The notes beneath the pieces were generated by a model. That model saw nothing but the letters and a program-made list of their open reading frames with translations. It made no database searches and was not told the origin of the DNA. The translations under genes and the position numbers were made by a program. Positions 18,482-33,024 of a DNA stretch of 54,759 nt are shown here, one piece after another. Numbering within the stretch: position 1 is the stretch's first letter; every line of letters begins with the position of its first letter. This stretch comes from Paracoccaceae bacterium (GTDB lineage: Bacteria; Pseudomonadota; Alphaproteobacteria; Rhodobacterales; Rhodobacteraceae). The stretch covers positions 1 to 54,759 of the forward strand of contig JAOTXT010000025.1 in assembly GCA_029862205.1 (NCBI GenBank). The letters run 5' to 3'.

Positions 18482-19345
18482 ATGCCAAATATCGTCGAGA
18501 ATCTGCCAAGTGCACAACGCAGCACTGACCCGCGCGATTACCAGGCGGTGCCGCGCCCCATGGCGGCAATGGCCAAGGCGTTCGCGGACCGGGCCGAGAT
18601 CGCCCCACACAGCCACCATCGCGACCAGTTGCTGTTCGCCGTGCGCGGCACGATGCGCGTCCGAACCGAGGCGGAGGCTTGGATCGTTCCACCTTATCGT
18701 GCGGTTTACATCCCTGGCGGCATAACCCATGCGATGAGCATCCGCGGCGATCTCGAGATGCGCACGCTCTATATCGCGCGCGGGACCGATCCCGGCCTGC
18801 CGGCCCTGCCGATCGTGCTCGAAGTCTCCGACCTTTTACGTAGTCTTATCCTGGCCCTGATCGACGAGCCGGTGCTCTACGATCAGACCGGACGCGGCGG
18901 AGCCATGGCGACCCTGATCCTAAGCGAGATCACTGGCGCCCGCCGCCTGCCGCTCGGCCTGACCCTGCCCCAGGACCCACGGCTGGCGAGGATTTGTGCC
19001 GCTCTGATCGCCGACCCGGGCACACGTCTCACCCTGGACGCCTGGGCGGATCATGCAGGTGCGTCGGCCAGAACCTTAGCACGCCTTTTCACCCGTGAAA
19101 CCGGTATGAGCTTCGGTGCCTGGCGCCGTAGAGTGCGCCTGCAATCCGCGGTCGAACAGATCGTCGCGGGAGCGTCGGTCGACCGTGTCGCGGCGGATTG
19201 CGGATACCGGAGTGCGAGCGCGTTCGCCGTGGCGTTCCGCCGTTCGGTCGGAGTTGCGCCGACGACGCTGCGCCGCGCATCGGATGGCGGAAGCGCCGTC
19301 TACGGACGGCTCGGCGAGGCAACGGGCGCGAGCCAGCCCCGGTAG
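18482..19345 (+). CDS. AraC-family transcriptional regulator (cupin + HTH)
   Basis: A 287-residue regulator. The N-terminal cupin part includes HSHHRDQLLFAVRGTMRV and PYRAVYIPGGITHAM, a ligand-sensing layout seen in NimR-type AraC proteins. The C-terminal DNA-binding domain (about residues 175-275) has both helix-turn-helix units: LTLDAWADHAGASARTLARL and VDRVAADCGYRSASAFAVAF, followed by FRRSVGVAPTTLR. It is divergent from the FSR-like MFS gene, the usual arrangement for local control of an exporter. Its last 46 bp overlap the end of the convergent DUF4166 gene. Confidence 0.92.
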   Translation: MPNIVENLPSAQRSTDPRDYQAVPRPMAAMAKAFADRAEIAPHSHHRDQLLFAVRGTMRVRTEAEAWIVPPYRAVYIPGGITHAMSIRGDLEMRTLYIARGTDPGLPALPIVLEVSDLLRSLILALIDEPVLYDQTGRGGAMATLILSEITGARRLPLGLTLPQDPRLARICAALIADPGTRLTLDAWADHAGASARTLARLFTRETGMSFGAWRRRVRLQSAVEQIVAGASVDRVAADCGYRSASAFAVAFRRSVGVAPTTLRRASDGGSAVYGRLGEATGASQPR

Positions 19346-20982: not shown

Positions 20983-21049
20983 GGGATTGAGCCTGCCATC
21001 CAAAATCCGCCCCGCCGATCCGGCGAATTGCCCCACCATGCGGCCCTAC

Positions 21050-22006
21050 TCAAAAGCACGCCTGTGCCCGCGTTTCGCGCGGGCTCTCGCCGTGCCGGCG
21101 GCGATAGGCCCGGGTGAAGCTGGCGGGCGAGGCAAATCCACTCTGCCCCGCGATCTCGAGCACCGGTAGCCTGGTCTCGATCAGCAAACGCCGCGCCCTG
21201 TTCAGCCGCAACGCTTGGTAGTGCGCATACGGCGTGACCCCCAGATCGCGCAGGAACAGCGTCTGCAGGTGCCGCGTGCTCACATTCGCCGCGCGCGCGA
21301 TCCGCGAGATCGGCCACGGCTCCTCCAGGTTCGTCTCCATCGCCGCCACGGCGCGGGCCAGATGCGGCTCGCGCGGGCGCGCCAGAGCGAGCGCCGGGGC
21401 CTGATCGGCGCGCTCGGACCGCTCGTAGGTGAAAAGCTTGGCGACCTCCAGCGACAGGGGATAACCGAGCCGCACCCGGATCAGCTCCAGCATCAGGTCC
21501 AGCGTCGGCCCGGCCCCGCCCGAGGTGAAGCGATTGCCGTCGATGACGAAGCGCCGGGGTTGAATGTCGATATCCGGAAAGGCGGCGGCGAAATCCGCCA
21601 GGTCCTCCCAATGGGTGGTTGCCCGGCGCCCAGTCAGCAGGCCGGCGCGGGCCAAAGCCCAGGCCCCAGCTTCGACGCCGCCGATCATCGGCCGCGCCCG
21701 CCCAGCCCGCCCCAGCCTTCGGATCAGGCCCGAGGTGACGTGGCGCGCGATGTCGTAGGAGCCCGCGACCACGAGAGGCGCGGCGCCCGCCACTGGGTCA
21801 AAGGCCCGCGCCGCCGGGATCGGCACGCCAGCCCGGTTGGAGGCTGCCGCGCCGTCTGGTGTGGTCAGGGTCCACCGGAACTGCTCGCGCCCCAGCACCC
21901 GGTTGGCCGCGCGCAAGGGTTCGATCAAAGCCGCGACCAGGATCAGGGTCGCATCCGGCAGAACCAGGACCTCGATTTCCAGCGGCGTGGGATCAGCGGT
22001 AAACAT
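21050..22006 (-). CDS. GlxA-family (DJ-1/PfpI + AraC HTH) regulator, CdhR-like
   Basis: A 318-residue regulator with an N-terminal DJ-1/PfpI-like sensing domain (about 10-190, including GGVEAGAWALARAGLLTGRR, where GxCxGxxxLAxAGLL is usual) and a C-terminal AraC domain (about 215-315, PISRIARAANVSTRHLQTLF and VLEIAGQSGFASPASFTRAY). The nucleophile-elbow cysteine of DJ-1 enzymes is replaced by Glu-Ala here, so it senses rather than catalyses. CdhR and GbdR, which control carnitine and glycine betaine use in Pseudomonas, belong to this family. Its divergent position next to the carnitine-type genes makes it the likely activator of that run. Ligand identity is inferred. Confidence 0.9.
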   Translation of the reverse strand: MFTADPTPLEIEVLVLPDATLILVAALIEPLRAANRVLGREQFRWTLTTPDGAAASNRAGVPIPAARAFDPVAGAAPLVVAGSYDIARHVTSGLIRRLGRAGRARPMIGGVEAGAWALARAGLLTGRRATTHWEDLADFAAAFPDIDIQPRRFVIDGNRFTSGGAGPTLDLMLELIRVRLGYPLSLEVAKLFTYERSERADQAPALALARPREPHLARAVAAMETNLEEPWPISRIARAANVSTRHLQTLFLRDLGVTPYAHYQALRLNRARRLLIETRLPVLEIAGQSGFASPASFTRAYRRRHGESPRETRAQACF

Positions 22007-22098
22007 TCAGCGTTTTCTGCATATTTTTGTTCTATTCCAGACAAGCACACGGCGATGCCTCAAGGCAAGCTCGGACAAATCGATCAAGGGAGGACACC
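22007..22098. promoter_or_regulatory. Divergent regulator/carnitine-cluster control region
   Basis: This 92-bp gap between the starts of the GlxA-type regulator and the BKACE gene must hold both promoters. It contains an unusually AT-rich stretch (GCATATTTTTGTTCTATTCC, 22018-22037), in contrast to the surrounding DNA, and AAGGGAGG (22086-22093) as the ribosome-binding site of the BKACE gene. No clear operator palindrome could be fixed by eye. Confidence 0.5.
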
Positions 22099-23016
22099 AT
22101 GCCGCTCGCCATGAACCGGGACGTCTTCATCACCTGTGCCGTGACCGGATCGGGCGGCAGCCAGGACCGCAGCCCCCATGTGCCGCGCTCGCCCCAGCAG
22201 ATCGCCGAGAGCGCGATCGACGCCGCCAAGGCCGGCGCCGCCATTGTTCACTGCCATGTGCGCGATCCAGAGACCGGCGTGCCCTGCCGCGACACCAATC
22301 TGTTCCGCGAGGTGACCGGCCGCATTCGGGACGCCGAAGTGGATGTCGTTCTGAACCTGACTGCGGGGATGGGCGGCGACATAGTCGTCGGCTCGGTGGA
22401 ATCCCCCCTGCCGCTGAACGAGAACGGCACCGACATGGCCGGCGCCACCGAGCGGGTCGCCCACGTGGCCGAATGCCTGCCCGAGATCTGCACGCTGGAT
22501 TGCGGCACCATGAACTTCGCCGAGGCCGATTACGTGATGACCAACACGCCGGGCATGTTGCGCGCCATGGGCCAGATGATGACCGATCTGGGTGTCAGGC
22601 CGGAGATCGAGGCCTTCGATACCGGCCATCTCTGGTTCGCCAAGCAGCTGGTCGAGGAGGGGATCATCCAGGACCCGGTGCTGGTCCAGCTCTGCCACGG
22701 CGTGCCCTGGGGGGCGCCGGATGACCTCAACACCTTCCTGGCGATGGTAAACAACGTGCCCGACAGCTGGACGTGGTCCGGCTTCTCGCTGGGGCGCAAC
22801 GAGATGCCCTATGTGGCCGCGGCGATCCTGGCCGGCGGCAATGTGCGGGTCGGGCTGGAGGACAATCTCTGGCTTGAGAAGGGCGTGCTGGCCACCAACG
22901 CCCAACTGGTCGAGCGCGCGGTCACCATCATCGAGAACATGGGCGCGCGCGTGATCGGCCCGGCGGAGGTGCGCGAGAAGCTGAAGTTGCAGAAACGGGC
23001 GCCAAAGGCCGCTTGA
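22099..23016 (+). CDS. BKACE-family beta-keto acid cleavage enzyme (probable 3-dehydrocarnitine cleavage)
   Basis: A 305-residue protein of the BKACE (formerly DUF849) family. These Zn-dependent enzymes cleave a beta-keto acid with acetyl-CoA, giving acetoacetate and a new CoA ester. The metal ligands H51 and H53 are visible in VHCHVRD, with the TIM-barrel strands VVLNLTAGMGGD, CTLDCGTMNF and the late ANVRVGLEDNLWL-type motif (GNVRVGLEDNLWL). In carnitine users, this enzyme converts 3-dehydrocarnitine plus acetyl-CoA into betainyl-CoA plus acetoacetate. That assignment rests on the carnitine dehydrogenase two genes downstream. The ATG at 22099 follows AAGGGAGG; the frame is open further upstream but without homology. 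It is the first gene of the run. Confidence 0.92.
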   Translation: MPLAMNRDVFITCAVTGSGGSQDRSPHVPRSPQQIAESAIDAAKAGAAIVHCHVRDPETGVPCRDTNLFREVTGRIRDAEVDVVLNLTAGMGGDIVVGSVESPLPLNENGTDMAGATERVAHVAECLPEICTLDCGTMNFAEADYVMTNTPGMLRAMGQMMTDLGVRPEIEAFDTGHLWFAKQLVEEGIIQDPVLVQLCHGVPWGAPDDLNTFLAMVNNVPDSWTWSGFSLGRNEMPYVAAAILAGGNVRVGLEDNLWLEKGVLATNAQLVERAVTIIENMGARVIGPAEVREKLKLQKRAPKAA

Positions 23017-23037
23017 CCATACAAGGAGGGAGTGGCC

Positions 23038-25548
23038 ATGACCCGCCCCCTTTCCGGCATCCGCGTCCTCGATTTCGGTCAGTATCTGGCCGGGCCGCTG
23101 GTGGGCATGATGCTGGCCGATTTCGGGGCCGAGGTGATCCGGGTCGACCGGCCGCAAGGCCCTCGCTGGCGCAGCCCGGCCTTTGATATGCTCAGCCGGG
23201 GCAAGCGCTCCATTGCCCTCGATCTGAAATTGCCAGAGGGCGCCAAGACCGCCCGCGCCCTCGCCGCCCAATCAGACGTGGTGATCGAGAACTTCCGCCC
23301 CGGGGTCATGGCACGGCTCGGCCTCGACGCCGAGGCCGTGCGCGAGGCCAACCCGGACCTCGTCTATCTATCGGTGCCGGGCTTTGCCTCGACCGATCCG
23401 GAGCTGGCCCATGTCCCGGCCTGGGAGGCGGTGATCGCCGCGCGCACCGGGCAGTTCACCGATATGGGCCTCAACCGGGTGCTGATGGGGATCAACCCCT
23501 CGTTCACGCCCTTGGCGCTGGCCTCGGCCTACGGCGCGGTCTTCGGGGCGATGTCGGTCCTTTTCGCCCTGGCCGCGCGGGGCAGGATGGGGGGCGACGC
23601 CATCGAGGTGCCGCTCGCCTCGGCCCTTTTTGAGGGGCTGGTCTATAACAGTGCCCGGGTTCAGGATTATCCGGACCGCTACAAGTCCCCGCGCGAGCTG
23701 GAAATCGAGCGCCGCCGGGCGGCGGGCGAGCCTATGGACATGAGCTTCGCCGATCTGCAGGACTTCCTCGACCCTTTCTACCGCATCTATGAATGCGCCG
23801 ATGGCCAGCTCTTCTACGTGGTCGCGGCTTCGCATACCCGCCATCCCTTCCGGGTTCTTGAGGCGCTGGGCCTCGGCGATTTGGCGGCGGAGCTGCCGGA
23901 TTTCGACGTCTACCAGGACAGCCAGGCCTGGCCCGGCCCCTGGGCGCTCCGCTCCTATCCGGTGGGCGCGGAGGACCGGACCCGGATCACCCGCGCCATG
24001 GAGGCCGCGTTCCTGACTCGCCCGGCGGCGGAATGGGAGGCGATCTTCGGCACCACGCCGGCGCCTGGCACCACCCAGCAAACGACGCGGGATTGGCTCG
24101 CCGACCCCCATGCCCGTACCTCAGGCCTGATCCTCGAGGTCGACGACCCCCGCCACGGCCTCATGCGCCAGATGGGCAACGTCGCCTGGCTGGGCGATGA
24201 CCCCGGCACGCTCGCCAAAGCCGCTGGCCCCGGGCCGGATCAACACCGCGAAGACATCCTCGCCCTCGCCGCTATGGCACCCTCTCCCCCCTCGTGGGGG
24301 AGAGATGGAGAGGGGGGGACGCTGCAGGCGTTCCTGGAACCCGGCCAAGGCTGGCTCACCGGCCTGCGGGTTCTCGACGTCACCAATGTCATCGCCGGCC
24401 CGACCATCGCCTCGACGCTCGCCCGCTTCGGCGCCGAGGTCACCCAGATCAACACGATCACCCCCTCGATGGACCCCTGGAACGCCATCGTCTTCGGGCT
24501 GCACGCCAATCGCGGCAAGCGCAGCGTGCTCCTCGACATCAACGCGCGCGAGGGGCGCGCGGCCTTCGACCGCCTGCTCGCCCAGGCCGACGTGGTCACC
24601 TTCAACGGCACCAACGCCCAGCGCGACCGGCTGGGCCTGAACCCGGCGGTCCTGGCCCGATCCCACCCCGGCCTGATCCTCGTCCAACTCGATATGTTCG
24701 GCGGCCCGCGCCGGGGACCGAAATCGGACTACCTCGGCTACGACGATCTCGCCCAAGCGACTTCCGGGGTCATGTGCCGCTTCGGCGGGCGCGAGACGCC
24801 TGAAGAGCACGCCCATCTGGGCACCATCGACGTCCTGACCGGGTTCGCGGCCTGCGTGGCGCTTGGGGCCGCGCTCGTGCGACGCGAACGGACAGGTCAA
24901 GGCGGCCTGGCGCGCGCATCGCTGGCCGCCGCCGGCAACCTGATCCAGGCGCCCTTCATGTATGACTTCGAGGGCCGCGCGCCCTTCGACGAACCCTCGG
25001 GCCGCGAGGCCATGGGATGGGGGCCGTTCTACCATTGCTACCCGGCATCTGACGGCTGGTTCTTCCTTGCCGCCCCGGACGAACGGGCCGAGGCGCTGGC
25101 CCGCGTTCCAGCCTTGGCGGACCTGGCGCAACTGCCTGAGGCGGAAATTGCGGACGCACTGACCGAGCGGTTTTCGACCGAACCTCTGGCCCATTGGCAA
25201 GCTGCGCTGGATCAGGCCACGACCGTGGTCATGCCATTGGCGACGCTGGCCGGGAACCGCGACGGGAACCTGTCGCGGGAGAGCACGGACGATCCCGATC
25301 TTCGCTGCGCGACCTTCCATGCGGTGCGCCACGACCGCCACCCGATGGGCCGCTGGGTCGAACTCACTGCCCCCAATGCGGTGCGCCCCCGGAACGCCCG
25401 GATCACGATACCCGGTCATGCCCGAAAATACGGCACCGACACCCGCAATGTGTTGGCGGAACTGGGATATTCTGAGGACGATATCGACCAGATGATCGCC
25501 ACCGGCCAGGCGGGGACACACTGGTCTGAGAGATACTTGCCGGAGTGA
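23038..25548 (+). CDS. Tandem CaiB/BaiF (class III) CoA-transferase
   Basis: An 836-residue fusion of two class III CoA-transferase domains. Domain 1 (about 1-405) begins SGIRVLDFGQYLAGPLVGMM and domain 2 (about 438-836) begins TGLRVLDVTNVIAGPTIAST. The catalytic aspartate that carries the acyl-enzyme anhydride is found in domain 2 (D598, in GTIDVLTG), while domain 1 has no Asp at the equivalent place (PLALASAYG), so only the second half looks catalytic. The same two-domain plan and length occur in DddD, the DMSP CoA-transferase/lyase. Here the neighbours suggest gamma-butyrobetaine, crotonobetaine or carnitine as acceptor. A repeat element encodes part of the inter-domain linker. The ATG at 23038 has AAGGAGGG seven bases upstream; a GTG at 23032 is too close. 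Confidence 0.9.
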   Translation: MTRPLSGIRVLDFGQYLAGPLVGMMLADFGAEVIRVDRPQGPRWRSPAFDMLSRGKRSIALDLKLPEGAKTARALAAQSDVVIENFRPGVMARLGLDAEAVREANPDLVYLSVPGFASTDPELAHVPAWEAVIAARTGQFTDMGLNRVLMGINPSFTPLALASAYGAVFGAMSVLFALAARGRMGGDAIEVPLASALFEGLVYNSARVQDYPDRYKSPRELEIERRRAAGEPMDMSFADLQDFLDPFYRIYECADGQLFYVVAASHTRHPFRVLEALGLGDLAAELPDFDVYQDSQAWPGPWALRSYPVGAEDRTRITRAMEAAFLTRPAAEWEAIFGTTPAPGTTQQTTRDWLADPHARTSGLILEVDDPRHGLMRQMGNVAWLGDDPGTLAKAAGPGPDQHREDILALAAMAPSPPSWGRDGEGGTLQAFLEPGQGWLTGLRVLDVTNVIAGPTIASTLARFGAEVTQINTITPSMDPWNAIVFGLHANRGKRSVLLDINAREGRAAFDRLLAQADVVTFNGTNAQRDRLGLNPAVLARSHPGLILVQLDMFGGPRRGPKSDYLGYDDLAQATSGVMCRFGGRETPEEHAHLGTIDVLTGFAACVALGAALVRRERTGQGGLARASLAAAGNLIQAPFMYDFEGRAPFDEPSGREAMGWGPFYHCYPASDGWFFLAAPDERAEALARVPALADLAQLPEAEIADALTERFSTEPLAHWQAALDQATTVVMPLATLAGNRDGNLSRESTDDPDLRCATFHAVRHDRHPMGRWVELTAPNAVRPRNARITIPGHARKYGTDTRNVLAELGYSEDDIDQMIATGQAGTHWSERYLPE
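24279..24318. repeat. GC-rich palindromic repeat inside CoA-transferase linker
   Basis: CTCTCCCCC (24282-24290) pairs with GGGGGAGAG (24296-24304), and a further GGAGAGGGGGG tail follows. Read on the minus strand it has the same plan as each arm of the element at 29084-29214: a C-run tail of about 12 bases and then the C5-6/G5-6 hairpin. In frame it encodes the PSPPSWGRDGEGG linker between the two CaiB domains. Confidence 0.75.
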
Positions 25549-25553
25549 GCAAC

Positions 25554-27014
25554 ATGACCATCAGAACGGCCGCGATCCTGGGGGGCGGCGTCATCGGCGG
25601 CGGCTGGCTCGCCCGGCTGATCGAAAACGGGATCGAGGCCCGCGTCTTCGATCCGGACCCGGAAGCCGAGCGCAAGCTGAATGCGGTGCTCGAAAATGCC
25701 GAGCACGCCTATGGTAGGCTCACCAACGCCCCACGTGGCCCAAAGGCCGCCTGGGCGATGGCGAGAACCGTCGCAGGAGCCGCCGAGGGCGCAGACCTGA
25801 TCATCGAGGCGGTGCCCGAACGGCTCGAGATCAAGCGGCAGGTCTATGCCGAGGTCGAGAAAGTCAACGCGACCGGCGTCATCGCCTCTTCGACCAGCGG
25901 CATCATGCCGACGGAGCTGCAGGCCGAAATGGCCCATCCGGGCCGCCTTATCGTCGCGCATCCCTTTAACCCGGTCTACCTGCTGCCGCTGGTCGAATTG
26001 GTGGCGGGGGGACAGACCGACCCGGCTCACATCGAATGGGCGAAGGATTTCTATGCCAGCCTCGGGATGCACCCGCTCCATTGCCGGGTCGAGATCGAGG
26101 GCTTCCTCTCGGACCGTTTGCAGGAGGCGCTCTGGCGCGAGGCGCTCTGGCTCCTGCACGACAAGGTGGCGACCGCCGAGGAACTGGACGCCGCCATCGC
26201 CTATGGCCCTGGGCTGCGCTGGGCGCAGATGGGCACCATGCAGACCTTCCATCTCGCCGGCGGCGAGGCAGGCATGCGCGGCATGCTGGCCATGTTCGGC
26301 CCCTGCCTCAAATGGCCCTGGACCAAGCTGATGGACGTGCCCGAACTGACCGAGGATTTCGTCGATATGGTCGGCGGCCAGTGCGAGGCGCAATCGGGGA
26401 GTCTGGGCCCGCGCGAGTTGGAACGCATCCGCGACGACAACCTGGTTGCCATGCTCCATGCGCTGAAGGCCAACGACTGGGGCGCGGGCAAGACCCTGGC
26501 GGCCTACGAGGCGGGCCAGGCGATCCGCTCGGTCCCGGCCGAGCCGGATTTCTCGAAGCCCTTCATCACCGCGACTCGTCAGGTGCCCGCCGGCTGGACC
26601 GACTATAATGGCCACATGAACGAGAGCCGCTATGGTCAGATGTTCTCGGACGCCGCCGACGGGATCATGCGGATGATCGGCTCGGACGAGGCCTATGTGG
26701 CACGTGGCATGAGCTGGTTCACGGTCGAGATCCACATCCGCTATCTGGACGAGGGTATGGCGGGCGACCCCCTGACGGTCACCACCCAGGTGCTGGAGGG
26801 CCGGGGCAAGAAGATGCACCTCTTCCACCGCCTGACCCACGCTGATGGGCGGCTGTTGGCGACAGGGGAGCAGTTCTTGCTGCATGTGGATATGAACGCC
26901 CGCAAGACCTGCGATCCGGCGCCGGAGGTGACGGCGAAGCTGGGAGAGATCGCCGAGGCCCAGGCCAGCCTGCCGGCGCCCGAGGGGGCGGGCCGGGCCG
27001 TTGGGGGGCGCTAA
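25554..27014 (+). CDS. lcdH: L-carnitine 3-dehydrogenase fused to hotdog thioesterase
   Basis: A 486-residue bifunctional protein. Residues 1-about 315 form a 3-hydroxyacyl-CoA-dehydrogenase-like NAD enzyme: AAILGGGVIGGGWLARL at the N-terminus, then LIIEAVPERLEIKRQVYAEV and AHPFNPVYLLPLVE. This subfamily oxidises L-carnitine to 3-dehydrocarnitine. Residues about 335-475 form a 4HBT hotdog thioesterase (AGWTDYNGHMNESRYGQMFS, with the D-x-N-G-H-M motif), expected to release glycine betaine from betainyl-CoA made by the BKACE enzyme. The same fusion is known in carnitine-degrading alphaproteobacteria. The ATG at 25554 has GGAG eight bases upstream; an in-frame GTG overlapping the previous stop lacks spacing. 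Confidence 0.94.
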   Translation: MTIRTAAILGGGVIGGGWLARLIENGIEARVFDPDPEAERKLNAVLENAEHAYGRLTNAPRGPKAAWAMARTVAGAAEGADLIIEAVPERLEIKRQVYAEVEKVNATGVIASSTSGIMPTELQAEMAHPGRLIVAHPFNPVYLLPLVELVAGGQTDPAHIEWAKDFYASLGMHPLHCRVEIEGFLSDRLQEALWREALWLLHDKVATAEELDAAIAYGPGLRWAQMGTMQTFHLAGGEAGMRGMLAMFGPCLKWPWTKLMDVPELTEDFVDMVGGQCEAQSGSLGPRELERIRDDNLVAMLHALKANDWGAGKTLAAYEAGQAIRSVPAEPDFSKPFITATRQVPAGWTDYNGHMNESRYGQMFSDAADGIMRMIGSDEAYVARGMSWFTVEIHIRYLDEGMAGDPLTVTTQVLEGRGKKMHLFHRLTHADGRLLATGEQFLLHVDMNARKTCDPAPEVTAKLGEIAEAQASLPAPEGAGRAVGGR

Positions 27015-27018
27015 AGAC

Positions 27019-27096
27019 CAATGCCCCGGGCTCGACCCGGGGCCTCGATGAACATCGCGCAACGGCGCGAGGTCCCGGATCAAGTCCGGGACATTG
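27019..27096. repeat. 78-bp palindromic repeat, copy 1 (intergenic)
   Basis: A 78-base unit bounded by CAATG and CATTG, containing two hairpins: CCCCGGG..CCCGGGG near the left end and GTCCCGGATCAAGTCCGGGAC near the right end. Copy 2 at 32062-32139 has the same length, the same orientation and nearly identical ends; the difference is concentrated in the middle about 20 bases. It fills the gap between the carnitine dehydrogenase stop and the SDR ribosome-binding site. Confidence 0.9.
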
Positions 27097-27112
27097 TGAG
27101 AAGGAGATCACG

Positions 27113-27880
27113 ATGCCCAGCGATAGCCGCATCCTCATAACCGCCGGCGGGGCCGGGATCGGCCGTGCCATGGGCGTCGCCTTTACCGGGGCGGGCGCGC
27201 GCGTCTGGGTGACCGATGTGGATGCCGAGGCGCTCGCCGCCTGCCCCGATAGCTGGCGCAAGACCCAGGCGGATGCGGCGGACCCAGCGGCCATGTCCGC
27301 GCTGTTCAACGAGATCGAGACCGAATGGAGCGGCCTCGACACCCTTGCCGCCAATGCCGGGATCGCCGGGCCGACCGCGTTGGTCGAGGAGGTCGCGTTC
27401 GCCGACTGGAAACGCTGCCTCGCGGTCAACCTCGACGGCGCATTCCTGGCCGCGCACCACGCCGCGCCGATGATGAAGCGCCAGGGGTCGGGGGCGCTCC
27501 TGATCACCTCCTCGGTCGCCGGGCTTTTCGGCCTGCCGCGCCGCACGCCCTATTCCACGGCGAAATGGGGCATGATCGGCCTGATGAAAACCCTGGCGAT
27601 GGAGCTTGGCCCCCACGGTATCCGGGTCAACGCGCTCTGCCCCGGGGCGGTCGAGGGCCCGCGCATCGACCGCGTGATCGCCGCCAAGGCCGAGGCCGAG
27701 GGGCTGCCCATCGATCAGGTCCACGACTCGTTTGCCTCGGCCAGCGCGATGCGCACCTTCGTCACCGCCTCCGACATCGCCAATATGGCCCTGTTCCTGG
27801 CCTCGCCCGAGGCGCGCCACGTCTCGGGCCAGGCGATCGCGGTCGATGGCGGTTACTACAATCCCGACCCGAAGATCTAA
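27113..27880 (+). CDS. Short-chain dehydrogenase/reductase (SDR)
   Basis: A 255-residue classical SDR. The cofactor turn is ITAGGAGIGRAMG (Ala-Gly in place of the usual T-G at its start), and D37 in VTDVD suggests NAD preference. NAGIAG, the catalytic Ser in ITSSVAG, and the Y-x-x-x-K pair in YSTAKWG are all present, and the C-terminus ends SGQAIAVDGGYY. In the carnitine cluster it may oxidise a second hydroxy-betaine, for example D-carnitine, to the same 3-dehydrocarnitine; that is inference. AAGGAG precedes the ATG at the proper distance. It is separated from the dehydrogenase gene by the 78-bp repeat and followed 12 bp later by the acyl-CoA dehydrogenase gene. Confidence 0.92.
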   Translation: MPSDSRILITAGGAGIGRAMGVAFTGAGARVWVTDVDAEALAACPDSWRKTQADAADPAAMSALFNEIETEWSGLDTLAANAGIAGPTALVEEVAFADWKRCLAVNLDGAFLAAHHAAPMMKRQGSGALLITSSVAGLFGLPRRTPYSTAKWGMIGLMKTLAMELGPHGIRVNALCPGAVEGPRIDRVIAAKAEAEGLPIDQVHDSFASASAMRTFVTASDIANMALFLASPEARHVSGQAIAVDGGYYNPDPKI

Positions 27881-27892
27881 GGGAGACCGGCA

Positions 27893-29083
27893 ATGCATTT
27901 CGGCCTGACCGAAGAACAGCAGATGATCGTCGACACGGTGCGGTCCTTCGTTGAACATGAGATCTATCCGCACGAGGAGGAGGTCGAGCGCACCGGCGAG
28001 ATCCCGCCGGAGGTCGCCCAGGCGATCAAGCAGAAGACAATCGAGCTCGGTTTTTACGCCTGCAACTTCCCCGAGGAGGTCGGCGGAGCCGGGCTCAGCC
28101 ACCTGGAATTCGCCTTGGTCGAGCGCGAGCTTGGTCGGGGCGCCATGGGGTTGACCCATTTCTTCGGCCGACCCCAGAACATCCTGATGGCCTGCGAGGG
28201 CGACCAGCGCGAGCGCTATCTGCTGCCCGCAGTCCGGGGCGAGAAGATGGACGCGCTGGCGATGACCGAGCCGGACGCAGGCAGCGACGTGCGCGGCATG
28301 AAGTGCTTTGCCAAGCGCGACGGGGGCGATTGGGTCGTGAACGGCACCAAGCATTTCATCTCGGGCGCCGACCACGCGGATTTCCTGATCGTCTTCATCG
28401 CCACCGGCGAGGAACAGACCCATGCGGGACCGAAGAAGAAGATCACCGCCTTCCTGGTCGACCGTGGCACGCCGGGGTTCACGATCCGCCCGGGCTACAC
28501 CTCGGTCAGCCACCGGGGCTACAAGAACATGATCCTGGAATTCGACGATTGCCGCCTGCCCGATGGCCAGGTTCTGGGCCAGGTCGATGGCGGCTTCGCG
28601 GTGATGAACGAATGGCTCTACGCCACCCGGATCACGGTCGCCACTGGCTCGGTCGGCCGCGCGCGCCGCGTCTTCGACTACGCGCTGAACTACGCCGCCG
28701 AGCGTAAACAGTTCGGCCAGCAGATCGGCAAATTCCAAGGGGTCAGCTTTCAGATCGCCGACATGATCACCGAGATCGATGCCGCCGACTATCTGACGCT
28801 GGCCTCGGCCTGGCGCCTCGACCAGGGCCTGCCCGCCAACCGCGAGATCGCCAGTGCCAAGGTCTTCGCCACCGAGATGCTGGCCCGCGTCACCGACGCG
28901 GCGATCCAGATCCACGGCGGCATGGGCCTGATGGACGACCTGCCCTTGGCCCGCTTCTGGCGCGACGCAAGGGTCGAGCGGATTTGGGACGGCACGAGCG
29001 AAATCCAGCGCCATATCATCGGGCGGGAGTTGCTCCGGCCGCTGGGGCGTGATGAGAAGAACGATGTCCCTGGCGCGCCTTGA
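27893..29083 (+). CDS. Acyl-CoA dehydrogenase (probable gamma-butyrobetainyl-CoA dehydrogenase)
   Basis: A 396-residue FAD-dependent acyl-CoA dehydrogenase with the normal three-part fold: helical N-terminal domain (GLTEEQQMIVDTVRSFVEHE), beta domain (AMTEPDAGSDVRGMKC and WVVNGTKHFISGADHAD) and C-terminal helical domain (RKQFGQQIGKFQGVSFQIAD, IQIHGGMGLM). Where the catalytic Glu usually stands (YEGT) this protein has Asp366 in IWDGTSEIQR. Given neighbours for carnitinyl-CoA hydration and carnitine oxidation, the likely reaction is gamma-butyrobetainyl-CoA to crotonobetainyl-CoA. The start follows AAGGGAGA. The stop codon abuts an inverted-repeat element. Confidence 0.9.
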   Translation: MHFGLTEEQQMIVDTVRSFVEHEIYPHEEEVERTGEIPPEVAQAIKQKTIELGFYACNFPEEVGGAGLSHLEFALVERELGRGAMGLTHFFGRPQNILMACEGDQRERYLLPAVRGEKMDALAMTEPDAGSDVRGMKCFAKRDGGDWVVNGTKHFISGADHADFLIVFIATGEEQTHAGPKKKITAFLVDRGTPGFTIRPGYTSVSHRGYKNMILEFDDCRLPDGQVLGQVDGGFAVMNEWLYATRITVATGSVGRARRVFDYALNYAAERKQFGQQIGKFQGVSFQIADMITEIDAADYLTLASAWRLDQGLPANREIASAKVFATEMLARVTDAAIQIHGGMGLMDDLPLARFWRDARVERIWDGTSEIQRHIIGRELLRPLGRDEKNDVPGAP

Positions 29084-29214
29084 CACCCCCTCCCTAACCC
29101 TCCCCCCAGCGGGGGGAGGGAATATCGTCGCGGCTAGAAGGCGCTGTCCGCGCGCAAAGATCGGAGCGGGGCGCGTTCCCTCCCCCCGCTGGGGGGAGGG
29201 TTAGGGAGGGGGTG
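29084..29214. repeat. 131-bp MITE-like element with 39-bp perfect inverted arms
   Basis: Bases 29084-29122 are perfectly complementary in reverse to 29176-29214, separated by 53 bases. Each arm itself contains a short hairpin, CCCTCCCCCC-AGC-GGGGGGAGGG. The left arm begins at the base after the acyl-CoA dehydrogenase stop. The right arm ends six bases before the ligase ATG and contains AGGGAGGGGG, which serves as its ribosome-binding site. There is no open frame or transposase inside. Confidence 0.93.
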
Positions 29215-29220
29215 ACACAA

Positions 29221-31269
29221 ATGCGCGACCTCTCTCGCCTGTTCCGCCCCCGTTCGATCGCTGTCTTCGGCGGCGGCGCCTGGGGACCAGCGGTCGTCGA
29301 GCAATGCCTCAAGATGGGCTTCGACGGCGCTATCTGGCCAGTCCATCCGACACGGGATGAAATGCATGGCCTGCCTTGCTACCGCACGGTCGAGGAGCTA
29401 CCGGAAGCGCCGGATGCCAGCTTCATCGGGGTCAACCGCAACCTGACCATCGAGGTGATCGAGCGGCTCGCGCGCAGAGGCGCCGGGGGGGCGGTCTGCT
29501 TTGCCTCGGGCTTTAAGGAATCCGAGGGCGAGGGAACCGGCGGCGCGGGCCTCCAGGCCTGCCTCCTGGAGGCGGCGGGCCAGATGCCGATCCTCGGCCC
29601 CAACTGCTACGGGCTGATCAACTATTTGGACGGCGCGCTCCTCTGGCCGGACCAGCATGGGGGCGAGCGTGTGGAGTCCGGTGTCGCGATCCTCACCCAA
29701 TCCTCGAATATTCTGATCAACATGACCATGCAGGCCCGCGCCCTGCCGCTCGCCTACTGCATCGCCGCCGGGAACCAGGCGCAGACAGGGCTCGCCGAGA
29801 TGGCCATGGCGGTGATGGACGACGACCGGGTCACAGCCATCGGCCTCTATATCGAGGGAATCGGCGACGTGCGCGCCTTCGAGGCGATGGCGGCCAAGGC
29901 ACGGGCGCTAAAGAAACCCGTGGTCGCGCTGAAGGTTGGCCGCTCGGATGAGGCCCGCGCCGGCGCGGTTAGCCATACGGCGTCGCTGGCCGGCGGGGCC
30001 GCGGCTTCTCACGCTTTCATGCGCCATCTCGGGATTCCGGAACTCCATTCGATCCCCGAGTTCCTGGAAACGCTGAAACTGCTGCATGTCCTCGGTCCCC
30101 TGCCTGGGCGCGAGATTTGCTCGATGTCCTGCTCGGGCGGCGAGGCGGCGCTGATCGCCGATGCGGCGGTCGGGCGCGACCTGCGGTTCCGGCCGCTGGG
30201 CGAAGCAGAGCGCGGAGCGGTCAAGGAGAGCCTTGGGCCCCTGGTGACCGTCGCCAACCCACTCGACTACCACACCTTCATCTGGGACGACGAGCCGGCG
30301 ATGACCGCGACGTTTTCTGCGATGATGGATGCGGGATTCGACTTCTCGATCCTGGTGCTGGACTTCCCGCGCCTCGACCGCTGCTCGGACCAGGCTTGGG
30401 AGAGCGCGGTCAGCGCAATCGCCCAGGCGGCGAGCGCGACCGGCGCGCGCGTCGCTGTCGCCGCCTCAATGCCCGAGAACATGCCAGAGACGCGGGCACG
30501 TCAGTTCATGGAGCTGGGCCTCGCGCCGATGCTGGGCCTAGGCGAAACCCTGGCCGCGGCCGAGGCTGCCGCTGCGGTCGCGGACGCGTGGACGCAACCC
30601 GCCTACAAACAGGTGCTGCTGGGCGCGCCAGATCAACCTGGCTCTCGGGTTCTGGACGAGGCCGCGGCGAAATCGGTCCTCACCGCGCATGGCCTCGCTG
30701 TTCCGGCAGGCGGGACAGCGCGGAGCGCGGAAGAGGCGGTTAGGATCGCCGAAGATTCCGGATTCCCAGTCGCCCTGAAAAGCCTTGGCATCGCCCATAA
30801 AACCGACGCTGGCGCCGTTCGGCTGGGCATCACGGACGCCGAGGCGGTGGCGGAGGCTGCCCGCGCAATGCCCGGCCCCTGGCTGGTCGAGGCGATGGTC
30901 GCGGACCCAGTGGCCGAGCTGATCGTGGGCATCCTCGACGACCCGGCCCATGGGTATACACTGACCATCGGTGCCGGAGGTGTCTTGACGGAAATCCTGG
31001 AAGACAGCGTGACCTTGATGCTTCCCACCGCCGAGGCCGAGATCCGCGATGCGCTAACCCAGCTCCGCATCTGGCCGCTGCTGGCCGGCTACCGTGGCCG
31101 CCCGCCCGCCGATCTGGACGCGGTTGTGCGCGCCTGCCTGGCGGTCCAGGATTACACCTCCGCCAATGCGGGCCAGGTGATCGAGATCGACATCAACCCG
31201 TTGATCGCCACGCCCACGGGCGCCGTCGCCGCCGACGCCCTGATCCGTCTGAGGGAGAAGACCAAATGA
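29221..31269 (+). CDS. NDP-forming acyl-CoA ligase (acetate-CoA ligase/ACS family)
   Basis: A 682-residue ADP/GDP-forming acyl-CoA synthetase with fused alpha and beta parts. The CoA-binding domain comes first (RPRSIAVFGGGAWGPAVVEQ), then the ligase-CoA domain with the phosphohistidine H252 in GAVSHTASLAG, a succinyl-CoA-ligase-like segment, and a C-terminal ATP-grasp domain (SVLTAHGLAVPAGG, FPVALKSLGIAHKTDAGAV, IEIDINPLIATP). It would activate a carboxylate such as gamma-butyrobetaine or crotonobetaine with ATP. It takes the place held by AMP-forming CaiC in enterobacterial carnitine operons. The ATG at 29221 uses a ribosome-binding site within the repeat element; an in-frame GTG at 29212 lies inside the arm. 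Its stop overlaps caiD as ATGA. Confidence 0.92.
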   Translation: MRDLSRLFRPRSIAVFGGGAWGPAVVEQCLKMGFDGAIWPVHPTRDEMHGLPCYRTVEELPEAPDASFIGVNRNLTIEVIERLARRGAGGAVCFASGFKESEGEGTGGAGLQACLLEAAGQMPILGPNCYGLINYLDGALLWPDQHGGERVESGVAILTQSSNILINMTMQARALPLAYCIAAGNQAQTGLAEMAMAVMDDDRVTAIGLYIEGIGDVRAFEAMAAKARALKKPVVALKVGRSDEARAGAVSHTASLAGGAAASHAFMRHLGIPELHSIPEFLETLKLLHVLGPLPGREICSMSCSGGEAALIADAAVGRDLRFRPLGEAERGAVKESLGPLVTVANPLDYHTFIWDDEPAMTATFSAMMDAGFDFSILVLDFPRLDRCSDQAWESAVSAIAQAASATGARVAVAASMPENMPETRARQFMELGLAPMLGLGETLAAAEAAAAVADAWTQPAYKQVLLGAPDQPGSRVLDEAAAKSVLTAHGLAVPAGGTARSAEEAVRIAEDSGFPVALKSLGIAHKTDAGAVRLGITDAEAVAEAARAMPGPWLVEAMVADPVAELIVGILDDPAHGYTLTIGAGGVLTEILEDSVTLMLPTAEAEIRDALTQLRIWPLLAGYRGRPPADLDAVVRACLAVQDYTSANAGQVIEIDINPLIATPTGAVAADALIRLREKTK

Positions 31270-32051
31270 CCGAGACCCCGATCAAGACCCGCCACGAGGG
31301 CGGCATCCTGGAAGTGACCCTCGACCGGCCCAAGGCCAATGCCATTGACCTGGTGACCAGCCGGATCATGGGCGAGACCTTCCGCGACTTCCGCGACGAC
31401 CCGGGCCTGCGCGTCGCCATCCTGCGCGCCGAAGGCGAGAAGTTCTTCTGCCCCGGCTGGGACCTGAAAGCCGCCGCGGCCGGCGACGAGGTCGATGGCG
31501 ATTACGGGGTCGGCGGCTTCGGCGGCATCCAAGAACTGCCGCATTTGAACAAGCCGGTCATCTGCGCGGTCAACGGCATTTGCTGCGGCGGCGGATTGGA
31601 ATTGGCGATTTCCTGCGATCTGCTGCTGGCCTCCGAGACCGCAACCTTCGCGCTGCCGGAGATCCGCTCGGGCACGATCGCGGACGCGGCTTCGCTGAAA
31701 CTGCCGAAACGCATCCCTTACCATGTGGCCATGGACCTGTTGCTTACGGGCCGCTGGTTCGATGCCGAGGAGGCGCTGCGGTGGGGCCTGGTCAAGGAGG
31801 TCTGCAAACCCGAGGAATTGCTGGACAAGGCCTGGGAACTGGCCCGTCTGCTCGAATCCGGCCCGCCGCTGGTCTATGCCTCGATCAAGGAGGTGGTGCG
31901 CGAGGCCGAGGATATGAAATTCCAAGACGCCATGAACCGGATCACCAAGCGCCAGTTCCGCAATGTCGACATCCTTTACGGATCCGAGGACAACAAGGAA
32001 GGCGCCCGCGCCTTCGCCGAGAAGCGCGATCCGGTGTGGAAGGGGCGGTGA
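31266..32051 (+). CDS. caiD: CaiD-like carnitinyl-CoA dehydratase / crotonobetainyl-CoA hydratase
   Basis: A 261-residue crotonase-fold enzyme. It shares with E. coli CaiD the strings ILEVTLDRPKANAID, FRDDPGLRVAI, GWDLKAAAAG and the C-terminal FAEKRDPVWKGR, which is strong support for this exact family. The oxyanion-hole segments are FFCPGWDLKA and CAVNGICCGGGLELAI. The expected reaction is the reversible hydration of crotonobetainyl-CoA to L-carnitinyl-CoA. Translation is coupled to the ligase gene by an ATGA overlap. In an aerobic carnitine catabolic run it would feed carnitine to the dehydrogenase after CoA release. The stop codon overlaps the GTG of the next gene. Confidence 0.93.
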   Translation: MTETPIKTRHEGGILEVTLDRPKANAIDLVTSRIMGETFRDFRDDPGLRVAILRAEGEKFFCPGWDLKAAAAGDEVDGDYGVGGFGGIQELPHLNKPVICAVNGICCGGGLELAISCDLLLASETATFALPEIRSGTIADAASLKLPKRIPYHVAMDLLLTGRWFDAEEALRWGLVKEVCKPEELLDKAWELARLLESGPPLVYASIKEVVREAEDMKFQDAMNRITKRQFRNVDILYGSEDNKEGARAFAEKRDPVWKGR

Positions 32052-32962
32052 AGAATAGATCCAATGCCCCGGGTTCGACCCGGGGCCTCGATGATCTGAG
32101 CGCAGCGGCCTGGGGTCCCGGATCAAGTCCGGGACATTGGGTCTTGACGATCGTCGCGACCCTATTCCTCACCACCCCCGCCACCGCCCAGGACTGCGGC
32201 ACCCGCGAGGGCACCTGCCCGACTGAAAACGGCTTTTACCGTTTGATCCTGCCCGAGGGCGTCGCGGCGCCCGTCCCCGCGCTGGTCTTCCTCCATGGCG
32301 GCAGCTCAACGTCGGCTGCGGTGATGAAAAACGGCGCCATGATCCGCGAACTGGGCACCCGCGGCTACGCCCTGATCACGCCCGAGGGACAGGAAAACCC
32401 GCCCCGCCCGCGCAAGAACTGGGGGGTCTTCGACAACCGAACCCATCCCCGCGACGACATTGCCTTCGTTAAGGAGGCCATCGCCGATGCCGCCCGGCGA
32501 GGGGTCGATCCCGGCCGCGTCCTGCTGGCCGGTTTCTCGCGCGGCGGCTCGATGGTCTGGGACATCGCTTGCCGGGCCCCCGGGACCGCCCGGGCCTATG
32601 CGCCGATCGCCGGCGCGTTTTGGGAACCTCTGCCCCAGAGCTGCGCCGCCCCGGTCGACCTCTTCCACAGCCATGGCTGGACCGACCGGATTGTACCGAT
32701 CGAAGGGCGCTCGTTCCGCAATGGCCGGGTGGTGCAGGGCGACCTTTTCGCCGGGCTCGCCGTCCTGCGCCGGACCAATGGCTGCGAGCCGCAGATGCCA
32801 GACGATAGGGTCATCGACCACGAGGCCGGCCTTTGGTTCCGCCGCTGGACCGGCTGCGCGGGCGGGCGCCTGGATCTGCTGCTCCACCCGGGCGGCCATG
32901 GCACGCCGAAGGGATGGCTGACCCGGGTTCTCGACTGGTTCGAGGCCCGGCTCGCGAAGTGA
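32048..32962 (+). CDS. Secreted alpha/beta hydrolase (PHB depolymerase/LpqC-like), copy 1, with repeat in signal peptide
   Basis: About 304 residues from GTG 32048, which overlaps the caiD stop as GTGA and has GAAGGGG upstream. After MKNR come 26-27 residues encoded by the 78-bp repeat, then a hydrophobic stretch VLTIVATLFLTTPATAQ with an AxA-type cleavage site. The mature domain has LVFLHGGSS, the nucleophile elbow GFSRGGS, Asp in HGWTDRIVP and His in HPGGHGTP, so the Ser-Asp-His triad is complete. TTG at 32144 is an alternative start that would avoid the repeat but gives a very short leader. It is closely related to the next gene. The substrate is unknown; polyester or ester cleavage in the periplasm is likely. 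Confidence 0.82.
   Translation: MKNRSNAPGSTRGLDDLSAAAWGPGSSPGHWVLTIVATLFLTTPATAQDCGTREGTCPTENGFYRLILPEGVAAPVPALVFLHGGSSTSAAVMKNGAMIRELGTRGYALITPEGQENPPRPRKNWGVFDNRTHPRDDIAFVKEAIADAARRGVDPGRVLLAGFSRGGSMVWDIACRAPGTARAYAPIAGAFWEPLPQSCAAPVDLFHSHGWTDRIVPIEGRSFRNGRVVQGDLFAGLAVLRRTNGCEPQMPDDRVIDHEAGLWFRRWTGCAGGRLDLLLHPGGHGTPKGWLTRVLDWFEARLAK
32062..32139. repeat. 78-bp palindromic repeat, copy 2 (inside hydrolase coding frame)
   Basis: This copy is the same length as copy 1 (27019-27096), in the same orientation, with CAATG/CATTG ends and the same two inner hairpins. Seventy-eight bases are 26 codons, so the unit reads in frame between the MKNR start and the hydrophobic core of the hydrolase signal peptide. 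Confidence 0.9.
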
Positions 32963-33024
32963 GCTTTTCTGACGTTCTCGTGAAAAGTGGCGCATGGCCG
33001 CTTTTAATCACGCGCCGCCATTCT

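Follow-up and report, generated by a model that had tools for sequence, protein, structure and literature searches.

A proposed gamma-butyrobetaine and carnitine catabolic operon in a Paracoccaceae bacterium, with a tandem class-III CoA-transferase of DddD architecture

Does a single operon encode both the conversion of gamma-butyrobetaine to carnitine and that of carnitine to glycine betaine, and what part does a tandem class-III CoA-transferase play in it? These questions are raised by the window studied here, i.e., the whole of contig JAOTXT010000025.1 (C62; 54,759 nucleotides), from a 4.44-Mb Paracoccaceae draft genome of 160 contigs. An initial annotation had described eight genes between 21050 and 32051 as a candidate complete route. 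Family assignments and profile matches placed all eight as that annotation had them, with a divergent GATase1-AraC regulator opposite a plus-strand run. The features are:

21050-22006, minus strand: GATase1-AraC (GbdR/CdhR/GlxA-type) transcriptional regulator, divergent; PF01965 (DJ-1/PfpI) and PF12833 (AraC HTH)
22099-23016, plus strand: BKACE, proposed 3-dehydrocarnitine cleavage enzyme; PF05853, 329 bits
23032-25548, plus strand: tandem class-III CoA-transferase (tandem CaiB) of 838 aa with two PF02515 stretches; DddD architecture and placement in a sister clade; proposed as a betaine CoA-transferase
24280..24319, plus strand: in-frame, imperfectly palindromic stretch in the linker of the tandem enzyme, a linker 9-11 residues longer than in 10 aligned relatives
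25545-27014, plus strand: L-carnitine 3-dehydrogenase fused to a 4HBT thioesterase (CDH-TE); NF005716, PF02737 and PF13279
27018..27096, plus strand: dispersed repeat element, copy 1
27113-27880, plus strand: SDR dehydrogenase, candidate D-carnitine dehydrogenase; PF13561
27893-29083, plus strand: acyl-CoA dehydrogenase (ACAD), proposed gamma-butyrobetainyl-CoA dehydrogenase; PF00441/02770/02771
29081..29217, no strand: dispersed palindromic repeat between the ACAD and ligase genes, with 42-nt arms and a strong predicted hairpin (z = -11.1)
29212-31269, plus strand: ADP-forming acyl-CoA ligase of the ACD superfamily, proposed to act on gamma-butyrobetaine (and crotonobetaine); PF13549, PF13607 and PF13380
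31266-32051, plus strand: CaiD, crotonobetainyl-CoA hydratase / carnitinyl-CoA dehydratase; NF002936
32061..32139, plus strand: dispersed repeat element, copy 2, after CaiD, the last gene; 89% identical to copy 1

On the plus strand, the BKACE gene thus comes first, then the tandem CoA-transferase gene, CDH-TE, the SDR gene, the ACAD gene, the ligase gene and finally CaiD. The tandem gene overlaps CDH-TE by 4 nt, as the ligase gene does CaiD. The gaps 5' of the SDR (98 nt) and of the ligase (128 nt) consist mostly of dispersed repeats. A scan of the operon for internal promoters and terminators gave counts close to the shuffled mean (1 vs 1.1; 8 vs 5.6, sd 2.7), and such signals were discarded as an explanation.

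By sequence, the module leading from carnitine to glycine betaine is complete in the window, with a dehydrogenase, a BKACE that retains its HxH motif and a 4HBT thioesterase. The BKACE gene starts at the ATG at 22099, just after a purine-rich stretch. Its product carries the HCHVR (HxH) motif, presumably with a role at the metal, which was found in 19/19 relatives scored. Its best matches are 68-86% identical and come from 145 of the 198 family genera examined (own genus included; one match is a fragment). CDH-TE reaches 656 bits with NF005716, above the curated cut-off of 592, and its thioesterase domain 98.7 bits with PF13279. In this lower half, the dehydrogenase would oxidize free L-carnitine to 3-dehydrocarnitine, the BKACE would convert dehydrocarnitine and acetyl-CoA to acetoacetate and betainyl-CoA, and the fused thioesterase would hydrolyze betainyl-CoA to glycine betaine. 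A sulfur analogue, gonyol, was considered, as a thought only, as a substrate of the BKACE and the dehydrogenase; dehydrocarnitine was kept, since the genera with these BKACE matches are mostly ones in which no tandem gene was detected. In R. pomeroyi on carnitine, the CdhABC proteins are reported to rise (PMC12478193).

The best NCBIfam model for the regulator is GbdR, at 224.6 bits; this is under the cut-off of 480 and counts against the pathway reading. Regulators 49-57% identical to it stand in the equivalent position in three other loci (L209, L210, and L212). GbdR and CdhR are described as GATase1-AraC regulators that govern betaine and carnitine catabolism (PMC5806209).

Among 72 NCBIfam matches of the hydratase, crotonobetainyl-CoA hydratase (NF002936) is the best, at 293.9 bits and under its cut-off of 500, which likewise counts against the pathway reading. 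The C-terminus is of the CaiD type (AFAEKRDPVWKGR), as the initial annotation had observed. GGGLEL and ALPEI, which hold the two crotonase Glu positions and which we take to serve their usual role in a crotonase-type CaiD, are both present. Among relatives, GGGLEL is found in 34/44, ALPEI in 43/44 and the C-terminal pattern in 24/44, where misses may reflect cut alignments. The ligase carries SHTA and AHKTD motifs, presumably catalytic. The ACAD, which adjoins the ligase and CaiD in related clusters too, has acryloyl-CoA reductase as its best model and reaches 177.9 bits with the CaiA model (cut-off 540), which argues against the pathway reading. In the proposed upper half, the ligase would convert gamma-butyrobetaine to gamma-butyrobetainyl-CoA, the ACAD would oxidize this to crotonobetainyl-CoA, and CaiD would hydrate the latter to L-carnitinyl-CoA. 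CoA would then have to be removed from carnitinyl-CoA before the dehydrogenase can act, a step that we would assign to either the tandem enzyme or the thioesterase. As first written, the joined route named no enzyme for this step and left the SDR unexplained. The SDR has no place in that version of the route; homologues of 50-63% identity lie within such clusters in four loci (L087, L212, L213, and L215), and it probably brings in D-carnitine.

The initial annotation had called for a synteny search for the co-occurrence of all seven genes in Rhodobacterales. In the 198 genera, CaiD was counted at at least 65% identity among the best matches, which gave 125 genomes; matches of only 45-46% (G053, G062, G116, and G184) were entered as CaiD-negative. 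Both CaiD and BKACE are present in 121 genera and neither in 49, while 4 have only CaiD and 24 only BKACE. The four with CaiD alone (G008, G021, G102, and G155) are drafts of ~330, 480, 870 and 370 contigs. The Fisher value for this co-occurrence is overstated, as it treats genera from the same family as independent. A ligase match was found in 137 genomes, 125 of which entered the linkage count, and CaiD adjoins the ligase in 116 of the 125 CaiD-bearing genera, so that the grouping of these genes is more than chance. The distance from CaiD to a BKACE is at most 12 kb in 48/125 genera, where 0.8 would be expected; in the other 77, which count against the pathway reading, this is partly due to contig ends. 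Two genera (G053 and G062) have the ACAD and the ligase beside the BKACE and, elsewhere, only a CaiD-like match of ~45%, which indicates that the trio of ACAD, ligase and CaiD is not always complete.

The linkage of CaiD, BKACE and ligase was thus borne out, but the tandem gene as a regular part of the route was not: no tandem CaiB was found in any of 40 family clusters examined, over up to 20 kb each, and it is consequently not needed for the route. These 40 loci were chosen by hand rather than at random, 20 ranking high among the CaiD and ligase matches and 20 others, six of these for a tandem-type match in the genome. Equivalent operons without the tandem CaiB and the SDR are found in N. 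petrolearium (L209) and S. meliloti (L210), and the CaiD marker occurs in rhizobia as well. Among the loci compared, the genome G004 has the ligase, ACAD and CDH-TE closest to those of the window; there, a second thioesterase lies between the ACAD and the ligase; no tandem gene was detected, and a specific search of the region from BKACE to CDH-TE gave no match. The genome screen for tandem genes scored up to four candidates per genome, and its absences are soft.

The joined route is not unique to this operon, because BKACE lies close to CaiD in the 48 genera, the set is likewise joined in Neorhizobium and Sinorhizobium, and the physiology of strain HK4 is known. That the route is real is probable, as the genes fit it and CaiD occurs almost only where the BKACE does. 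The operon as a whole is likely to serve gamma-butyrobetaine and carnitine catabolism that ends in glycine betaine with the trimethylammonium group kept, a reading drawn from sequence comparison.

The tandem protein had been correctly called as a gene, although its presentation as a regular part of the route did not hold and its DddD architecture had gone unremarked. An ordinary CaiB was rejected, with 121.1 bits for the L-carnitine CoA-transferase model (cut-off 413). The protein has YDD at 570-572 in the C-domain, with a catalytic-type Asp, and E132 in the N-domain. A search for relatives confirmed 145, of which the best 80 were listed. From the tree, L179, L181, L187, L197, L198, L200, L204, L206 and L207 were left out for length or coverage, as were L021 (partial), L122 (same protein as L007) and L123 (a further Ruegeria record). 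The window protein and 73 clade-A sequences, among them at least seven doubles in which one contig, by its length and the position, was entered twice (L006/L142, L008/L132, L009/L134, L010/L151, L011/L149, L012/L150, and L013/L202), form a clade apart from the DddD clade B, with a support of 0.997. Clade B includes S. fredii NGR234 DddD, a protein of proven activity. At 49 diagnostic sites, the window protein matches clade A at 43 and clade B at 1.

Gene neighborhoods were compared for 68 clade-A loci, which contain no such doubles but in places several species per genus, and some of whose flanks are cut by contig ends. Within 6 kb, a GATase1-AraC regulator is found for 33/68 clade-A genes vs 0/12 in clade B, a GMC oxidoreductase for 2/68 vs 12/12, and a LysR1-type regulator for 0/68 vs 10/12. 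The latter two are presumably DddA and DddR in clade B; no GMC oxidoreductase or LysR regulator was found among the 20 window proteins scanned. A BKACE of at least 79% identity lies near the clade-A gene in four loci (L134, L145, L185, and L200), against an estimated ~0.3 expected; the 64/68 loci without a close BKACE, some with flanks cut by contig ends, count against a link. In L133, the clade-A gene stands beside a gamma-butyrobetaine-dioxygenase-like gene (318 bits, under the cut-off of 414.75). D. shibae (G035) has a clade-A gene, but neither CaiD nor BKACE gave a match there within the limits applied, which indicates that clade A has no fixed tie to carnitine.

Whether the tandem enzyme is a betaine CoA-transferase of some kind is, on this evidence, an evenly balanced question. 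In its favor, gamma-butyrobetainyl-CoA is described as the joint product of two distinct class-III CoA-transferases, BbuB and BbuC, neither of which makes it alone (PMC8364193); against it, work cited in PMC7174347 holds a carnitine CoA-transferase role of DddD to be unlikely. The alternative that it is a true DddD, so that the operon would also cleave DMSP to dimethyl sulfide and 3-hydroxypropionyl-CoA, seems unlikely to us. The two groups do share a similar length, a two-domain architecture, the YDD and EEHAH-GTID motifs and 42-49% identity between the window protein and clade-B proteins, and 6/68 clade-A genes (4/12 in clade B) have a BCCT transporter within 6 kb. Moreover, D. shibae, whose sole tandem match found belongs to clade A, is said to encode DddD (PMC7934745), and a metagenome survey set its floor at 40% identity while also demanding clustering with proven DddD (PMC9327192). 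These points are opposed by the separate clade, the diagnostic sites and the different neighbors. A further proposal, also rather doubtful, makes the enzyme a member of the lower half that mainly shifts CoA from betainyl-CoA to acetoacetate, recycling both BKACE products without ATP. The tandem gene does lie between the BKACE and CDH-TE, overlapping the latter, and in 5/5 actinobacterial loci it has a carnitine-dehydrogenase-like gene on one side and, on the other, a distant BKACE (32-34%). In L200, the BKACE is preceded by an acetoacetate-CoA ligase gene (825 bits against a cut-off of 639), which indicates that acetoacetate activation belongs to that cluster. Yet the same operon encodes a thioesterase, and D. 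shibae has the tandem gene without a BKACE match.

The upper half invites other readings too. It is improbable that the trio serves another short acid, its closeness to the carnitine genes being a regulatory convenience. This would agree with an ACAD that is not a close CaiA, with a ligase whose nearest named full-length structures act on 3-hydroxypropionate, DMSP or 4-hydroxybutyrate, and with the 77 genera lacking a nearby BKACE; it agrees poorly with the presence of this BKACE in nearly all CaiD-bearing genera, with the equal arrangement in rhizobia and with CaiD as the best model of the hydratase. Far less credible is a ligase that acts as a DddX-type ATP-dependent DMSP lyase. Both belong to the ACD superfamily, DddX (7cm9) is the second PDB match (187 bits), and H255 of the ligase aligns with the phosphorylated His292 of DddX. 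However, Trp391, Glu432 and Phe435, reported as important in DddX (PMC8163506), align with H354, A395 and S398 in a hand-read HMMER alignment that is weak there.

Returning to the betaine CoA-transferase, the tandem enzyme would most likely shuttle CoA among betaines, for example from carnitinyl-CoA or betainyl-CoA to gamma-butyrobetaine, giving a free betaine and gamma-butyrobetainyl-CoA. With such a transfer, the thioester energy would be recycled onto the next gamma-butyrobetaine, and the ligase, with its ATP, would mainly prime the cycle. We tentatively extend this to clade A (D. shibae, Ruegeria, Leisingera, Roseibium, Halomonas, and others), whose members may be quaternary-amine CoA-transferases, one-chain counterparts of the BbuB/BbuC pair that can be mistaken for DddD by architecture and ~45% identity. 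If so, not every tandem CaiB protein has to be a DddD, and part of the genomic DddD counts, which bear on estimates of dimethyl sulfide producers, would not make dimethyl sulfide. More generally, a pathway of a production strain would be tied to a defined gene set, with a CaiD marker in 125/198 genera of one family and in rhizobia, and the use of gamma-butyrobetaine could be predicted from genome sequences. The route would be aerobic and would spare trimethylamine.

Several known systems resemble parts of this operon. The carnitine catabolism of P. aeruginosa, S. meliloti and R. pomeroyi (CdhABC) is likewise described with a dehydrogenase, a BKACE and a thioesterase, and that of P. aeruginosa with a GATase1-AraC regulator; these systems are the lower half only, whereas the window joins it to the upper half. 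Some enzymes of E. coli caiTABCDE act on the same compounds. That cluster likewise has an ACAD, a class-III CoA-transferase, a CoA ligase and CaiD; however, it is described as an anaerobic reduction, and the window has an ADP-forming ACD/ATP-grasp ligase rather than the AMP-forming CaiC, a tandem protein rather than CaiB and an ACAD far from CaiA. In HK4, gamma-butyrobetaine and crotonobetaine are reported to be degraded via CoA ester, dehydrogenation, hydration and carnitine (PMC3546705). For the Rhizobium/Agrobacterium-like HK4 and HK13, this sequence, with carnitine dehydrogenase and complete use, is the same as proposed here, but the portions of these accounts consulted leave the upper-half genes unnamed and a tandem CoA-transferase unmentioned (PMC3546705, PMC2131755). 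The bbu cluster of Emergencia timonensis, likened here by description, also uses two unlike class-III CoA-transferases that jointly activate gamma-butyrobetaine; in that anaerobic system, BbuB and BbuC are described as separate proteins and BbuA as releasing trimethylamine. Finally, DddD likewise combines two class-III domains in one chain of ~830 aa with a C-domain YDD, but it falls in a separate clade from the window enzyme and keeps another regulator and other neighbors.

Co-occurrence and linkage make it likely that the operon at 21050-32051 encodes a route from gamma-butyrobetaine to glycine betaine, as the initial annotation proposed; such joining of an upper and a lower half is frequent, not a rarity, and the unexpected element is the DddD-like CoA-transferase. 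ORF listing and profile scans recovered the annotated gene set on contig C62, which is the whole window within a 4.44-Mb draft of 160 contigs:

19300-21039, DUF4166 protein, flank of the operon
21050-22006, minus strand, divergent regulator
22099-32051, plus strand, run of seven genes
24280-24319, imperfect palindrome, in frame, within the lengthened linker joining the two CaiB domains
27018-27096 and 32061-32139, dispersed repeat in two copies, one on each side of the SDR-ACAD-ligase-CaiD block
29081-29217, dispersed palindrome with 42-nt arms, between the acyl-CoA dehydrogenase (ACAD) and ligase genes
32306-32995, protein without a Pfam match, flank of the operon

Overlaps of 4 nt join the genes for the tandem CaiB and for CDH-TE (carnitine 3-dehydrogenase fused to a thioesterase), and those for the ligase and CaiD. 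None of the flanking genes, the two listed above and those for a further alpha/beta hydrolase and pantoate ligase, seems to belong to the operon. For the repeat of 27018-27096, at least 51 genome matches were listed, both-strand doubles included (40 of 92 candidates scored); the palindrome of 29081-29217, whose predicted folding is far better than that of shuffled sequences, has 22 listed matches, also with both-strand doubles. At 1-888 lies the C-terminal portion of a BCCT transporter, broken by the contig edge; the fragment that ends contig C29 may be its N-terminal portion.

We regard the lower half of the pathway as well founded. In profile scans, CDH-TE scores 656 bits against a curated cut-off of 592 for carnitine 3-dehydrogenase and contains a 4HBT thioesterase domain, and BKACE is a clear member of PF05853 with the HCHVR motif. 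According to earlier studies, CdhABC protein levels rise in R. pomeroyi on carnitine (PMC12478193), one dehydrogenase is reported in S. meliloti for both the first step and glycine betaine release (PMC12482172), and in P. aeruginosa these routes are under the control of the GATase1-AraC regulators GbdR and CdhR (PMC5806209). As a possible sink, the host genome carries 14 MTTB-family genes, a large set of possible candidates for quaternary-amine demethylases; the marine glycine betaine demethylase MtgB is described as having MTTB-family-type homologues (PMC12478193).

The upper half consists of three genes conserved as a set, for ACAD, an ADP-forming ligase and CaiD. The family was sampled with one genome from each of 198 genera; at best-row identity limits of at least 65% for CaiD and 68% for BKACE, CaiD was present in 125 and BKACE in 145. 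Both occurred in 121 genera, CaiD without BKACE in 4, BKACE without CaiD in 24 and neither in 49 (Fisher value 2e-23, a guide only, as descent is ignored). By these counts the upper half exists almost only where the lower half does, as expected if it were to feed carnitine into the latter. The ligase gene adjoins CaiD in 116 of the 125 CaiD-bearing genera; in 48 of the 125, CaiD and BKACE lie no more than 12 kb apart, against 0.8 expected under random placement. Of the nine genera where the ligase does not adjoin CaiD, two lack a ligase among the matches listed; in the other seven, the listed match is on a different contig. Within 40 loci of our own choice, BKACE and CDH-TE were both present in 12, BKACE alone in two and CDH-TE alone in one (L092), where BKACE lies just beyond the stretch first fetched. 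Two genomes (G053, G062) are exceptions: ACAD and ligase stand beside BKACE, and the only CaiD-like match (~45%) is elsewhere in the genome. Among the ACADs of loci L083-L121 and L208-L215, a motif in the active-site region splits two subgroups, WDGTSEIQ (36/45) and WEGTSEIQ (9/45).

Joined clusters also occur in named records. The order in N. petrolearium is regulator, BKACE, CDH, ACAD, ligase, CaiD, and it recurs on pSymB of S. meliloti Ak57, followed by a peptide-type ABC transporter; the ligase there (L210 5927-7971) has no gene annotation and matches in two adjoining pieces. R. pomeroyi and R. conchae have the regulator and the trio, with no BKACE found within the stretch fetched around them. 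Between ligase and CaiD, R. pomeroyi (L208 9396-10001) and genome G004 (L212 3282-3884) each carry a gene for a DJ-1/PfpI-like protein. Genome G076 has, on contig C18 (L041 8918), a shorter relative of CaiB (50% over 339 aa), ~7 kb away from a joined cluster's carnitine dehydrogenase. As for physiology, HK4, a strain near Rhizobium and Agrobacterium, is described as using gamma-butyrobetaine and crotonobetaine completely, by way of a CoA ester that is dehydrogenated and then hydrated to carnitine; HK13, a mutant of it that lacks the dehydrogenase, is described as a carnitine producer (PMC3546705, PMC2131755).

The tandem CaiB has 838 aa and two class-III domains. Its sister clade A, 61-69% identical to it, enters the tree with 73 sequences, of which at least seven are doubles. 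Clade B, taken as canonical DddD, is 42-49% identical and includes Phaeobacter piscinae and the S. fredii NGR234 protein, an active DddD. In a tree rooted on one distant sequence, the window protein branches first, beside clade A (support 0.997 for the two together, 0.72 for the rest). At 49 sites diagnostic of A versus B, it has the A state at 43 and the B state at one, and an actinobacterial group has 21 and 11, respectively. D. shibae yielded a single tandem CoA-transferase match, which belongs to clade A (L122 10001-12472, pDSHI01, WP_012187170.1), and the DddD reported for this species may instead be a betaine CoA-transferase.

Within 6 kb of the tandem gene, the contexts of 68 clade-A and 12 clade-B loci differ sharply. 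A GMC oxidoreductase is found in 12/12 clade-B versus 2/68 clade-A loci, and a LysR1-type regulator in 10/12 clade-B loci. Genes for a GATase1-AraC regulator (33/68 versus 0/12), a dimethylformamidase-beta-like DMFA2_C protein (32/68 versus 0/12; ~550 aa; L188 8300-9946, L029 11003-12691 and others), CDH-TE (4/68 versus 0/12) and BKACE (3/68 versus 0/12) accompany clade A; the window operon is without DMFA2_C. BCCT occurs in 6/68 and 4/12, and another 18/68 clade-A loci have a different ~308-aa gene at the regulator position. In flanks extended to 10 kb, BKACE of at least 79% identity occurs near clade A in 4/68 loci (L134, L145, L185, L200), with ~0.3 expected by our estimate (20 kb of ~3.8 Mb). 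In Halomonas nitroreducens (L133), a gamma-butyrobetaine-dioxygenase-like gene stands beside the tandem gene, with a betaine-binding protein and carnitine-dehydrogenase-like pieces nearby; a trimethylamine-methyltransferase-family gene adjoins it in L155, and in 5/5 actinobacterial loci it sits between a distantly related BKACE and a gene resembling carnitine dehydrogenase. These neighbourhoods favour quaternary amines over DMSP. On the other side, no CaiD or BKACE match was found in the D. shibae genome and no close BKACE in 64/68 clade-A loci (flanks to 10 kb); carnitine is therefore not the sole clade-A substrate. The L145 contig (LSZA01000156.1), with an alphaproteobacteria-like BKACE-CDH-tandem CaiB cluster, is filed under the cyanobacterium Phormidium willei, probably through contamination.

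The substrates of carnitine dehydrogenase and BKACE are free acids, so CoA must be removed from the carnitinyl-CoA made by CaiD. The fused thioesterase may do this, and also release glycine betaine from betainyl-CoA. Of the loci compared, that of genome G004 comes closest to the window's in ligase, ACAD and CDH-TE; it contains a second gene for a thioesterase, placed between those for ACAD and the ligase, and no tandem CaiB was detected in the genome matches or the fetched locus. A CoA-transferase at this step would save the thioester. The class-III proteins BbuB and BbuC of E. timonensis, 30% identical, make gamma-butyrobetainyl-CoA only together (PMC8364193), and by analogy the tandem CaiB may be a one-chain counterpart of this pair. 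It has YDD in the C-domain and, by our reading, Glu132 at the matching place of the N-domain. SDR homologues (50-63%) lie within such clusters in four loci (L087, L212, L213, L215); in L213 (genome G180) the SDR is flanked by BKACE and CDH-TE, the latter matching in four pieces, and no CaiD match was found in that genome. A lower-half role, for instance as a candidate D-carnitine dehydrogenase, would fit.

In the literature covered, mostly outside subscription journals and patents and accessible in part, no assignment of the upper genes in alphaproteobacteria was found, and the present one may perhaps be new. The window's tandem CaiB has the same two-domain architecture as DddD. The window's ligase, with motifs SHTA and AHKTD (profile scan, motif check), belongs to the ACD superfamily, whereas CaiC of the E. 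coli cai system is AMP-forming.
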